Virus record (IMG/VR): IMGVR_UViG_3300009332_000248 | Span: 1-30,347 of that record | DNA: 30,347 nucleotides | Strand: one strand, 5' to 3' | Source of the DNA: a virus | Shown here: piece by piece, positions 3,033 through 24,119 of the stretch | Layout: each line of letters starts with the position of its first letter | Position numbering within the stretch: position 1 is the first letter of the stretch | Translations under genes and position numbers: made by a program | Notes under the pieces: model-generated | Seen by the model: only the letters and a program-made list of their open reading frames with translations | Told to the model about the DNA's origin: nothing | Databases searched by the model: none

Positions 3033-3317
3033 ATGACTAAAGGTCAAAGCCTAGTAGAGCATTATTCTAAATCTAATCATAATATGCACGATAAACTAAT
3101 GAAACGATTTATGCTAAGTGACAGAGACGACGACGTAGAAATGATGATTAAATTAGCCTCAAGCATAGCCTATATGCAGCAGACCCAGACCACACTTACA
3201 AAGAATCTATACGTAGAGCAGCACATTAAAGACATTAACCGTAAACTGGACAGAATCCCTCCAGAGGTATTGCAGAGCACTATGAGCCCTGCTGTGTTGG
3301 AGCCTATTGAGACTTAA
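3033..3317 (+). CDS. Hypothetical protein; candidate small terminase subunit by position
   Basis: A 94 aa, largely helical protein directly upstream of and overlapping (TAATG) the large terminase gene. Small terminase subunits usually sit there and contain an N-terminal helix-turn-helix and a helical oligomerisation region; here two long helical stretches are visible (DDDVEMMIKLASSIAYMQQ and KDINRKLDRI). No clear helix-turn-helix motif is seen and the protein is short for the family, so the assignment rests mainly on context. Confidence 0.45.
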   Translation: MTKGQSLVEHYSKSNHNMHDKLMKRFMLSDRDDDVEMMIKLASSIAYMQQTQTTLTKNLYVEQHIKDINRKLDRIPPEVLQSTMSPAVLEPIET

Positions 3318-5185
3318 TGACAGGTACTATATCCACAGAACTTAACAAGATAGCCAAACGAATGAGCGTAGAGGCTGCCGTAGTTTTACCTAAATTACAT
3401 AAAAATGACTGGGAGTTTGCTCTCCATGATAGGAAATTCATTGGAGGCACTGAGAGGAAATGGGATCTCATACCATTCTACCCACCTATTTACTTAGACA
3501 ACCACCCATCAAAGACAATCCTCGCAGGCAGACAGACTCACAAAACTACCTATGCTGCAGATAAGGTAGCAAGCAAACTACTACGCAATAAGGGCAAAGA
3601 AGTCACATACGTGGCAGACAATGAGCCCCACAAATCAGCATTTAGTAGACAACGATTTAGACGTGAGACCATGCTGGCTAATGATAATCTAAGGGCTTAT
3701 CTCCCACATGGAGGACGTGCTGCAGTAGATACTCTGGAGTGCTTGAATGGCTCAGTTGGCTACATGGTCACAGACGAGGGAGAATACAAGAACGTAGAGG
3801 GTAAGAGTAATTATTATCTAGCCTTTGACGAGACACAATACCATGATTACCAATTTGTATCTCATGCTACCTACTCACTTACTCAAACACATGGACAGTT
3901 TGAGACTATGGGGATTGGAGGAGAGGCAGGCTCTGAATGGGATAACCGTTGGCTCGCAAGTGATCAAAGAGAGTGGATCTATGATGATAGCAGCGATTAT
4001 ACCGACAAAAGTACAGGACGAAAGTACGAACATCAAGGCTGGAGAAATAACCTAACCTATGATGAGTATGGCATAATTAATAACAGCCCAGAGGATCTAA
4101 AGAAAATACTAGCAGGACAATGGATACCACAAAACCCAGACGCTACAGAGGTAAGAGGCTACCACCTACCGCAAAGAATATTCCCATCTATTCCATTGAC
4201 TATTCATAGTGCCGTTAATGACTATCAAATCCCATCAAACATTAGTATAGAATGGCAGGAGAAAAATCAGCCACAGTCAATATTCCTAAGTCACTGTGAG
4301 GGCAAATTCTACAAGGCAGAGAGGAGACCTATCACTCCAGAAATGGTCAAAGCCTGCATGAGACCGTATGAATATCTAAACCTTTTATCAGGAGACGAGG
4401 TAAGAGAACTCAAGAATCAATATGGTAACGAACTCAGGGTACTGGGTGGTATTGACTTCGGATCTAGCACGACAACCCCTACAACAGTTTTGGCAATTCT
4501 CTTACACTGGAGGAAGTCAAAGCGTTATCAACTCGCATGGATTGAAAAAATCGCCCAAACAGACCACCCATACGACAAAGCCAGACATATCGCAGAAACT
4601 TTCGCAGCATACGGAGTCGATATAGCAGTTGGAGATATTGGGCATGGACAGGATATGGTACCCGTTATTCAGGACGGAGGCAGAGACTCACAGGATCAAC
4701 CATTCTCAGGACTTGGAAAATCCACATTTTACTCCTGCAGAACCATATCAGATGAAACAAAGCCCCACATGGACATTCAAGCAGACTCAGAGCCAGAGGG
4801 AGAAGAACTTGGCAGATTCCAAGTAGACAAAACTACTATCATTCAACAGTTTGTCGATTTTATAGGCTGGAAAGTAGACTGTGCTCATATCAGAGAACCA
4901 TGGAGAGAATTAACAAGAGAGGACGATCCTATCGCTATACCTAAACTTATGATCCCTTATGCTAAGAACTGGGAGACAGACTGGCTAGTTAAGGACTGGG
5001 TGCAATTAACCCGTAAGGACTTGGAAAAACAACAGGAGGGAGCAGTAGAGGACGGCAGGCAAAGAGTACGTAAGGAGTTTAACCACCCTCCAGACTCTAT
5101 GATGGCTATCATTTACTGTATGGTAGGAGATAACAATTATGATGAGGGCTCATTCAGTATTAGCAGAGTTAGACGAAAGCGGTAA
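3317..5185 (+). CDS. terL: Terminase large subunit (TerL), packaging ATPase/nuclease
   Basis: The DNA-packaging motor that binds at the portal, hydrolyses ATP and cuts concatemers. The ATPase half has a Walker A-like AGRQTHKTT (residues 70-78) and a Walker B YYLAFDE (166-172). The C-terminal RNase H-like nuclease has its acidic residues in GGIDFGS (D380), VGDIGHG (D440) and HPPDSMMA (D593). At 622 aa it is of usual length. One oddity is that the last glycine of Walker A (GKT) is histidine (HKT). It follows the candidate small terminase with a 1 nt overlap. Identification is secure from motif order and spacing. Confidence 0.93.
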   Translation: MTGTISTELNKIAKRMSVEAAVVLPKLHKNDWEFALHDRKFIGGTERKWDLIPFYPPIYLDNHPSKTILAGRQTHKTTYAADKVASKLLRNKGKEVTYVADNEPHKSAFSRQRFRRETMLANDNLRAYLPHGGRAAVDTLECLNGSVGYMVTDEGEYKNVEGKSNYYLAFDETQYHDYQFVSHATYSLTQTHGQFETMGIGGEAGSEWDNRWLASDQREWIYDDSSDYTDKSTGRKYEHQGWRNNLTYDEYGIINNSPEDLKKILAGQWIPQNPDATEVRGYHLPQRIFPSIPLTIHSAVNDYQIPSNISIEWQEKNQPQSIFLSHCEGKFYKAERRPITPEMVKACMRPYEYLNLLSGDEVRELKNQYGNELRVLGGIDFGSSTTTPTTVLAILLHWRKSKRYQLAWIEKIAQTDHPYDKARHIAETFAAYGVDIAVGDIGHGQDMVPVIQDGGRDSQDQPFSGLGKSTFYSCRTISDETKPHMDIQADSEPEGEELGRFQVDKTTIIQQFVDFIGWKVDCAHIREPWRELTREDDPIAIPKLMIPYAKNWETDWLVKDWVQLTRKDLEKQQEGAVEDGRQRVRKEFNHPPDSMMAIIYCMVGDNNYDEGSFSISRVRRKR

Positions 5186-15327: not shown

Positions 15328-15462
15328 ATGAAAGCACAATTAATCCACGCTGCAGCAAGAAAGCACGTAGAGGGAAAATTGGCAAGTCCTGAAATCTTTG
15401 ATCTCAGACACTTACTCAATGATCTCGTCTTTCACTTTGCTGTCCACGGTGTAGGAGTATAG
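15328..15462 (+). CDS. 44 aa hypothetical protein
   Basis: A helical, His-rich peptide (LIHAAARKHVEGKL; FDLRHLLNDLVFHFAVHG). No recognised motif. First gene of a three-gene cassette; the ATG sits where the promoter predicts a leaderless start. Confidence 0.45.
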   Translation: MKAQLIHAAARKHVEGKLASPEIFDLRHLLNDLVFHFAVHGVGV

Positions 15463-20888: not shown

Positions 20889-22073
20889 ATGCCTAAAACT
20901 GGCGAGACAATCTCTCGTAATTCCTTGTTAGAATCTAACGATTTTACAGGTATTAGAGAAGCATTGAACCACGCAGCAGATGGCTACCAATCTCAAGGTA
21001 AATCTTGGGATTTCTGGAAACCAATTAGAGAAACACCTCTAGCAGTATTCTTTGACAAGGCAGACGGTTCCATGGACGACATGAGACTTAACCCTAACTT
21101 ACCTAGAATCTGGCACGAACACTATGGTATCTCCATAGGCGACTATGCCTCCAAAGGAGGAAACTCAATTAGAGAAACAGTTAGTGTACCAAACTCACTA
21201 TCTATTTTGAAAATTGCAGATGAGATTATCGAGGGTGCAGAACCTTACAGTGACTGGAAACAATACTCCAGACTCATTGAAATGGACGCCCCTAAAGTAA
21301 ACGTACCAAAAACTAGATACACTGATCAAGTTGGTGGCTCAACATCAACAGCATACAAACTTGATATTTTCAAAGAATCTGGCGGTAAACCACCAATGAT
21401 AGGCGGTAAAATGGAACCTATTGAACTTGACTGTAGCAATACAAAAAACAGTTTTAGAGGTACCATTAGAGTCGAAAGAAACGATGTTAAGGATAACAAC
21501 TTCTTAGCAGTAGAACAACCACTCAAAAACGCTGGTAACTTATTCTACTACTTGGCTGGTAAAAGAATCATTGATCAAATGATCAGTGACACAACTACCA
21601 ACACTGACACCTTGGCAAACTTAGACTTTGCAACCCCGATTCACGCTGAATTTGAAGCATTAAGTAATGTTATCCGTTCTAAATTCAGAGGTTCACAGAG
21701 AAACACTGCAGATACTATGTTTATCAACCCTGCTGACGCTTACCAAACAGTAAGTAAATCAACAGGTGCAAGCGGATCTTATCTATTCTTAGATAAGAGA
21801 GTCTTGAGAGATGATAGTAATAGTGATGTAGTAAACAACTCTGGACTCGCAGCAGCATTAGGACTCAAAAACGTCTTTGAAACTCCACAAATCGCAGCAG
21901 GCACAGTTATGATCACTAAACGTGACGTAGCACAAGTCGTAGGTTTGAGAGAAGATTTGACCATTGAGAACTATGATATGACTGTAGGCGGTCTCTACGA
22001 TTCTGACCTTGTATTACGTTTCGACGTTAAAGAGGCAGACGAGAACGGTGCATACAAAATCACTTCATTCTAG
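20889..22073 (+). CDS. Major capsid protein, HK97-type
   Basis: A 394 aa protein after scaffold and decoration genes and before a strong terminator. It has an N-terminal arm, TPLAVFFDKADGSMDDMR, a long spine-helix region (NLFYYLAGKRIIDQMISD) and a late segment AAGTVMITKRDVAQVVGLRE followed by beta strands (YDSDLVLRFDVKEADENGAY), consistent with P- and A-domain order of HK97-fold capsid proteins. Its codons are cleaner and more GAA-rich than those of the packaging genes, as expected for a highly expressed gene. Several hundred copies would form the capsid. Confidence 0.8.
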   Translation: MPKTGETISRNSLLESNDFTGIREALNHAADGYQSQGKSWDFWKPIRETPLAVFFDKADGSMDDMRLNPNLPRIWHEHYGISIGDYASKGGNSIRETVSVPNSLSILKIADEIIEGAEPYSDWKQYSRLIEMDAPKVNVPKTRYTDQVGGSTSTAYKLDIFKESGGKPPMIGGKMEPIELDCSNTKNSFRGTIRVERNDVKDNNFLAVEQPLKNAGNLFYYLAGKRIIDQMISDTTTNTDTLANLDFATPIHAEFEALSNVIRSKFRGSQRNTADTMFINPADAYQTVSKSTGASGSYLFLDKRVLRDDSNSDVVNNSGLAAALGLKNVFETPQIAAGTVMITKRDVAQVVGLREDLTIENYDMTVGGLYDSDLVLRFDVKEADENGAYKITSF

Positions 22074-22776: not shown

Positions 22777-22846
22777 GAAATCTCCAGATCAATGCAACTG
22801 GCTTAGAGCATTATCATTTTTAATTCCATTTAGTGACGAAGATTAA
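22763..22846 (+). CDS. 27 aa micro-ORF
   Basis: A TTG-initiated frame overlapping the membrane-protein gene by 14 nt, reading MAKNKKSPDQCNWLRALSFL and a short acidic end. The basic start and hydrophobic middle could be a small membrane-associated peptide. Weak case. Confidence 0.3.
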   Translation: MAKNKKSPDQCNWLRALSFLIPFSDED

Positions 22847-22855
22847 CTCTTTTAA
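22845..22855 (+). promoter_or_regulatory. Late-type promoter (AACTCTTTTAA) in front of the hairpin RNA
   Basis: No open frame starts at the predicted start point; instead the last A of CTTTTA is 23 nt before the first base of the 11 bp stem at 22877, matching the 23-24 nt seen at late protein genes. Confidence 0.55.
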
Positions 22856-22876
22856 TTTCACATTCTCACAAAATTT

Positions 22877-22955
22877 GTTAGGGTAGACAACGATACGACC
22901 TCCCTCACAGGTTACCCTCCAGTACCTGTCTTAGCCTTGGTTATTCTACCCTAAC
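22877..22955 (+). ncRNA. Candidate structured non-coding RNA (79 nt)
   Basis: GTTAGGGTAGA (22877-22887) and TCTACCCTAAC (22945-22955) form a perfect 11 bp closing stem. Inside, ACAGGT-AC (22907-22915, one bulged T) pairs with GTACCTGT (22922-22929) around a CCTCCA loop, and AAC/GTT may extend the outer stem. The element sits in a 162 nt gap without convincing ORFs and begins where the upstream late promoter predicts transcription to start. It is not a tRNA: no T-arm signature, no D-arm and no anticodon arm are seen on either strand. Function unknown: packaging RNA, antisense regulator or mimic are possibilities. Confidence 0.5.
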
Positions 22956-23008: not shown

Positions 23009-23107
23009 ATGACACAATGTAACAAATGTGAATACAAGTGGGAGACCACTTCAAAACTTCAAAACGTTACCTGTCCATCATGCGGAGGCAAGGTCAAAAA
23101 TGATTAA
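23009..23107 (+). CDS. 32 aa zinc ribbon
   Basis: C4NKC7 and C22PSC25GG separated by 14 residues, the standard zinc-ribbon layout. It overlaps the secreted protein gene by 8 nt. Function unknown. Confidence 0.55.
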   Translation: MTQCNKCEYKWETTSKLQNVTCPSCGGKVKND

Positions 23108-24119
23108 ACTCCTTACAGCATTTCTATTGTTTACAATAGGTGCCATGAGTTTATCAATCGCACACGCAGAGGAGCAGACTAACGACGCTGTAATCGTACC
23201 ATTCGAGTTTAATGGACGTATTTGTGGAATGTTAGAGAATGGGAATTTTGTCTGTGAATGGGATCCATCTATAATCGATCTCAACGATATTATCGTTAAT
23301 GGCACAGAGACAATCCCTAATCCAACTGAGGCAAGTACCAAAGTCGAGGACGTACCTGAACCAATAGTCATAGAGGAGGAACCTGAGACTATTCTAACCA
23401 AATTCGAGCAAGATATGGAGAGATTAATCGAAAAAGATGATCTCGACCCTAAGGAAAAAGAATACTTAGCCTTATTGCAGAACTTGGCTGAATGTCAGAG
23501 AGGTTATGCCGAGTCATTCGGAGTCGTAACTCCTAGCAGTTTTGCTATTAGTTACACATGGATTAACGACAGAAATGGCGAATCCCCAGAATGGACTAAA
23601 GCCTTTGACTATACAGGCAGACACGCTGAACTCAAAAAAGGTATTGAGGAGTGCAAAGCAATACGCACAATCTTAAACCCTGTCACTCTAGGTGCATACA
23701 CCCTACACATGGGTCAATACTTTGGTCAAATCCAGCCACATCATAGCGAAAAAGCGATAGTAGATGAGGGCAGATGGCTAGACGTTAAGACTCACGTACC
23801 ACTCAATGAGCACAACTTCATAGAGTCAGTAGAGGACGCACAAAAGACAATCTGTACTCACACATTATACGAGCAAAGAACAAAGTCTCAGTATGACTGT
23901 CCGCCAGTAGAATATCCTGACGGAGATATTGTAAATCCTAAGGGCTTTGTAGAGTATGGTAGTTCAGTAGAGGACAAATTCCTAAAGTATCAAACTGACG
24001 GAGGAGCACAGCAAGCAAAACAAATCACTGGAGAAAAATACCGTGAAAAATTGCAACAATTACAAGAAGTTATGAAAGCACAACAAAACCAATACACAGG
24101 CGAGGGCTACGGAAATTGA
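23100..24119 (+). CDS. Secreted or virion-surface protein with signal peptide
   Basis: A 339 aa protein. The N-terminus, MIKLLTAFLLFTIGAMSLSI then AHA|EEQ, is a clear Sec signal peptide with a likely cleavage after AHA near residue 24. The mature part is acidic, with an EEEPET-type linker, a helical central region (YLALLQNLAECQRGYAESFG) and a Gln-rich helical end (LQQLQEVMKAQQNQYTG). At least six cysteines may form disulfides outside the cell. The ATG chosen gives the signal peptide; an in-frame start at 23028 would bury it. It overlaps the metallopeptidase gene (TTGA), so the two may act together at the cell surface. Confidence 0.65.
   Translation: MIKLLTAFLLFTIGAMSLSIAHAEEQTNDAVIVPFEFNGRICGMLENGNFVCEWDPSIIDLNDIIVNGTETIPNPTEASTKVEDVPEPIVIEEEPETILTKFEQDMERLIEKDDLDPKEKEYLALLQNLAECQRGYAESFGVVTPSSFAISYTWINDRNGESPEWTKAFDYTGRHAELKKGIEECKAIRTILNPVTLGAYTLHMGQYFGQIQPHHSEKAIVDEGRWLDVKTHVPLNEHNFIESVEDAQKTICTHTLYEQRTKSQYDCPPVEYPDGDIVNPKGFVEYGSSVEDKFLKYQTDGGAQQAKQITGEKYREKLQQLQEVMKAQQNQYTGEGYGN

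Follow-up and report, generated by a model that had tools for sequence, protein, structure and literature searches.

A 79-nt intergenic element in the genome of an uncultured virus folds back on itself through an 11-bp closing stem, and the first base of that stem lies where a promoter box of the late type predicts transcription to begin. The closest relative carries a homolog at the syntenic position, in which paired bases have changed together, and further relatives carry elements of the same architecture and unrelated sequence at or near the same site. We favor, at about even chances, a model in which the element is a discrete late noncoding RNA that acts in trans, with its own archaeal-type promoter and a stem sealed from +1. 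It is the resemblance of this promoter to those of the late genes that suggests late expression.

The window, that is, the whole 30,347-nt stretch that was analyzed, is a virus record in which a terminase (phrog_675) and a protein of head morphogenesis are encoded. Its TATA-like boxes, followed by leaderless starts, and its T-runs after genes are archaeal-type features, and we are probably dealing with an uncultured tailed virus that has an archaeal host; a marine origin is a guess. Size, gene order, and wide conservation in 48 related contigs are our grounds for calling 20889-22073 the capsid gene. Family models gave no match to its product, and scans of genome contigs with capsid proteins found no provirus.

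A closing stem at the predicted start site

The arms of the closing stem (Table 1) are perfectly complementary and form the only perfect 11-bp inverted repeat with a span of 40 to 120 in the entire window. Inside the stem sits an 8-bp hairpin with a single bulged T (ACAGGT-T-AC paired with GT-ACCTGT). The 79 nt fold with a minimum free energy of -25.2 kcal/mol (z -3.8), a value equalled by 1 of 200 shuffles. The final A of the late box lies 23 nt before the first stem base, and the distance from CTTTTA to the stem is 28 nt; at the late genes, most of which are leaderless here, the distance from CTTTTA to the ATG peaks at 28 to 31 nt.

On which strand is the RNA encoded? The minus strand of the region also folds (z -4.1), so the strand is not given by folding alone, and the closing stem contains no G.U pairs and is hence uninformative on this point. 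Rather, it is the box that fixes the strand, since its distance to the stem is that between box and ATG at leaderless late genes. The plus strand is indicated as well by the analogous RNAs of three relatives (L037, L039, and L004), in which all G.U pairs of the closing stems lie on the promoter strand.

No open reading frame (ORF) of at least 20 aa lies within 22877-22955 on either strand; a 32-aa minus-strand ORF overlaps the last 5 bases of the RNA, and a 34-aa ORF upstream of it terminates inside the promoter box. The original prediction had described the perfect stem, which can be read directly in the sequence, the inner 8-bp hairpin with one bulge, and the 23-nt distance between box and stem. 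All three hold, and the distance matches the position of the ATG at leaderless late genes. Its further statement that the gap lacks a convincing ORF is correct for the RNA itself; the gap also holds a small zinc-ribbon ORF and the 34-aa ORF.

The zinc-ribbon ORF is followed by a sequence encoding a secreted or membrane protein. Such a protein is encoded by the downstream ORF in L004, L006, and L037 and by 23009-24119 in the window; a zinc-ribbon or ribbon-helix-helix-like domain forms its N terminus in some relatives and is a separate small ORF in others. Elsewhere in the window, a second structured intergenic element, TCTGACCGTAA...TTATGGTCAGA (2924-2977; z -5.3 for the fold of an 80-nt window), lies about 31 nt after a T-rich/TTTAAA stretch. 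Its homolog in L146, from the same record as L002, keeps the flanks ACCGTAA and TATGGTCAGA and has a changed interior. The gaps at 15343 and 17880 also contain strong folds but, by reading, overlap small ORFs.

Table 1. Features of the RNA locus in the window
Feature	Position	Strand	Basis or remark
Late promoter box ACTCTTTTA (TATA-like)	22846..22854	+	Leaderless late genes 6717, 20399, 22261, 25751 share box and spacing
Structured RNA, 79 nt, predicted 5' end 22877	22877..22955	+	Fold z -3.8; L002 homolog
Closing stem 5' arm, 11 bp, GTTAGGGTAGA	22877..22887	+	No other perfect 11-bp inverted repeat with a span of 40 to 120 in the window
Apical hairpin 5' arm ACAGGT	22907..22912	+	AATGAT in L002; three pairs with compensatory changes on both sides, no pair lost
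Apical segment TACCCTCCAGT (TACATTCCAGT in L002), with bulged T and inner AC/GT pair	22913..22923	+	Conserved
Apical hairpin 3' arm ACCTGT	22924..22929	+	As 5' arm
Closing stem 3' arm, TCTACCCTAAC	22945..22955	+	As 5' arm; nine pairs kept in L002
Zinc-ribbon ORF (MTQCNKCEYKW...), CA-rich leader	23009..23107	+	Zinc-ribbon-like, below Pfam cut-offs; leaders compared across relatives

A homolog in the closest relative and analogous elements in others

The conservation and covariation among relatives that the original prediction had named as a test of itself are found: the closest relative has a homolog at the syntenic position whose changes are compensatory, and analogous RNAs occur in other relatives. 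That closest relative (L002), whose capsid protein is 89% identical to that of the window, has in its syntenic gap (3081-3161) an 81-nt element, GTTAGAGAGGAAATG...CCTCCTAAC, that begins 28 nt after its own box. The homolog was spotted by reading the gap and afterwards tested statistically: its alignment with the window RNA scores 48, which none of 2,000 shuffles reached (maximum, 43.5). The apical loop TACNNTCCAGT is common to the two RNAs, and the apical segment is identical at 9 of 11 positions while the stem beneath it has changed. Among the six hairpin pairs below the loop, three are changed on both sides and none is broken (permutation p ~0.007). The closing stem in L002 keeps nine pairs with one bulge, and three of these pairs are changed on both sides (permutation p ~0.002, with the bulge chosen by eye). 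The L002 RNA folds weakly (-13.8 kcal/mol), and its closing stem needs the bulge.

These two sequences make up the exact RNA family as found. When 38 records were searched with a covariance model built from both, no additional member emerged, and blastn with the RNA region as the query had no match in any locus or phage record. Viral contigs were also scanned with an exact 24-base pattern and with a loop pattern; neither brought up another family member, and the matches that remained had at most 2 flanking base pairs versus 6 in the two true members. Similarities to the window RNA in L008 and L010 proved spurious: the alignments lie in or over the sequence of other genes and have no stem. In L002, the RNA is followed by an HNH gene instead of the zinc-ribbon gene. 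The same hairpin of about 37 nt (ACTAGCCTAACACTGAAATACATCAGTGTCAGACTAG) stands ahead of each of two HNH endonuclease genes there, at ~2155 and ~3166, an arrangement that resembles a mobile unit.

Structured elements with sequence unrelated to that of the window RNA occupy the same site in L004, L037, L039, and L006 and a nearby one in L047. Scans for a box plus a stem without an ORF yielded L037 7477-7543, L004 7516-7584, and L039 7477-7543, and across 217 box-like sites the strongest closing stems at orphan boxes were those of L037, L004, and the window. Measured from a TATA-like box whose variant was chosen per locus, the distance to the stem is 28 nt in the window, L002, and L037, 29 nt in L004, 30 nt in L039 and L047, and 25 nt in L006. 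The elements of L037 and L039 are homologous (0 of 1,000 shuffles as good), and their closing stem has three compensatory changes (p ~0.0007). Apart from this pair, the elements have architecture alone in common; that L004 might be a further homolog of the pair was unsupported by the alignment test. In L037, two elements stand in tandem behind one promoter; the first separates that promoter from the second element, which gives the impression of an insertion at the start site. The second is also present in L006, has weak stem evidence (p 0.14), and could lie on either strand. The element of L047 (7223-7305) forms a three-way junction and adjoins the capsid gene.

Most relatives have no such RNA, including most of those that share the capsid protein, and the capsid proteins of L004 and L037 are 87% identical, yet their RNAs are unrelated. 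The site downstream of the capsid gene acts like a slot in which one late RNA with sealed ends can take the place of another, and the RNA sequence family that fills it, to judge from these comparisons, turns over rapidly.

Discrete RNA, mRNA leader, or DNA element

In the model that we favor, transcription would start with base 22877, the first of the closing stem, such that the 5' end would be base-paired from +1 and both ends of the RNA would be sealed together. An RNA whose ends are sealed from +1 should be stable against exonucleases, and a 5'-3' exonuclease is known in archaea, namely, in Sulfolobus (PMC3792030). The closing stem would hold up the apical hairpin, and the loop, conserved on a changing stem, is probably where a protein or RNA target would be contacted in trans. 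In the slot after the capsid gene, different viruses would carry different RNAs of the same build, much like phage "moron" genes, and their rapid replacement by unrelated RNAs suggests a host- or competitor-facing role, such as that of a regulator or decoy, and speaks against a core function of the virion. The search for a target found none; complementarity to the ribosome-binding region of the capsid gene was within the shuffled range. An antisense role at that ribosome-binding site was rejected on this ground, and the complementarity is not kept in L002.

The original prediction had spoken of a discrete late RNA of about 80 nt. The structured RNA, the late promoter, and the stem at the predicted start all stand, but discreteness remains a prediction: there is no tract of at least four T's within 290 nt after the RNA (the first TTTT comes 290 nt on), which means that a discrete RNA would have to get its 3' end by processing, or else the hairpin would remain the 5' end of a longer mRNA. 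This missing terminator keeps alive the main alternative, which we regard as real though somewhat doubtful, that the zinc-ribbon/membrane-protein mRNA begins with the element as its structured 5' leader, in which case the +1 hairpin would shield the mRNA's 5' end from 5'-3' decay or act in cis on the translation of the gene that follows. Given the archaeal 5'-3' exonuclease described in PMC3792030, a stem at +1 would be the simplest protection. By reading, no late box was found between the RNA and the next gene, and small zinc-ribbon or possible ribbon-helix-helix proteins are often encoded downstream of the slot. Does a leader, then, account for the distribution of these RNAs? Late genes in this virus are mostly leaderless, and a CA-rich leader of this kind precedes the zinc-ribbon gene even in relatives that lack the RNA, which weakens this explanation. 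In L002 it is the HNH gene that follows the RNA, and in L047 the RNA precedes another gene with a possible box of its own (by reading, GATATA 28 nt before the ATG). With this possible box, and with the zinc-ribbon leader kept where the RNA is absent, the RNA looks like a separate module. Moreover, end protection alone would not explain why the loop is conserved while the stem changes.

It is also conceivable, if improbable, that the inverted repeat works as DNA, whether as a packaging or replication site or as a small mobile element. Inverted repeats of unrelated sequence at one site would fit such a role, as would the HNH endonuclease genes in the same slot of L002. Against a DNA element stand the distance of 25 to 30 nt between promoter box and stem, which recurs in seven elements, and the G.U pairs, which in L037, L039, and L004 lie only on the promoter strand; the repeat is also present in a single copy in the window and missing from most relatives. 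Chance alone we consider very improbable. Some 0.4% of dinucleotide shuffles of the gap (20 of 5,000) contain such an 11-bp stem, and the window holds many gaps, but a stem that starts within 2 nt of the predicted start arose in only 2 of 5,000, and the syntenic homolog with its compensatory changes and the analogous elements in relatives also speak against chance.

Known RNA families and the post-capsid slot

No known RNA family fits the window RNA. The Rfam search that the original prediction had suggested was run and gave nothing similar: Rfam 15 at the gathering threshold had no match in the window or in 10 relatives, and a permissive search produced chance-level matches only. ARAGORN found no tRNA or tmRNA gene in the window. 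Among 21 relatives, tRNAs occur in L034 only, away from the slot, where two tRNA-Gln genes and one tRNA-His gene stand in a row (4128-4352, minus strand). Archaeal C/D box sRNA motifs (C box RUGAUGA, D box CUGA) are absent from 22877-22955 by reading, consistent with the negative Rfam result, and the 3' flank CGTAAATAAAA lacks the ACA box of archaeal H/ACA RNAs.

Adenovirus VA RNAs and Epstein-Barr virus EBERs are small viral noncoding RNAs of about 160 to 170 nt, transcribed by RNA polymerase III in animal viruses, whose ends are paired in a terminal stem below an apical stem-loop and whose protein partners are known. The window RNA resembles them in outline only, in a stem that would pair its two predicted ends and in the apical stem-loop, and its sequence and spacing would fit such a stem from +1; it differs in its 79-nt length, its archaeal TATA-type promoter, and the lack of any sequence relation. 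The packaging-motor RNA of phi29-type phages (pRNA) is likewise a phage-encoded structured RNA that keeps its fold while its sequence diverges. It is needed by the packaging motor and universal in its group, whereas the RNA described here is missing from most relatives that share the capsid protein, and there is no Rfam match. Similar in genomic behavior are phage "moron" genes and prophage-encoded sRNAs (e.g., Pas sRNAs), described for bacteria, which are independent transcription units inserted between conserved genes and variable among relatives; a stem sealed from +1 and a slot shared with unrelated RNAs are absent from their description.

Animal viruses and bacterial phages are well known to encode small RNAs. 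To our knowledge, those of archaeal viruses have hardly been described, and a literature search for a small RNA encoded by an archaeal virus found no paper. We raise, tentatively and as a rather unlikely generalization, the possibility that a group of uncultured archaeal tailed viruses has a dedicated post-capsid slot for small RNAs that change fast, are unrelated to one another, are each closed off by a stem at +1, and are exchanged like cassettes. Unrelated RNAs of one architecture in close relatives point to rapidly evolving RNA effectors, and the cassette slot, if real, would represent an arms-race layer of such effectors in archaeal viruses. A search rule for more of them follows from the geometry, namely, a late box without an ORF and a closing stem that starts about 28 nt downstream.

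Two contigs (L003 and L009) stop at or just before the slot, as if assembly breaks at a variable site, and the end of L009 directly follows a sequence that resembles a promoter box. In five relatives (L016, L018, L021, L028, and L029), AT-rich inverted repeats built on AAGGTATTTT recur upstream of the capsid gene.
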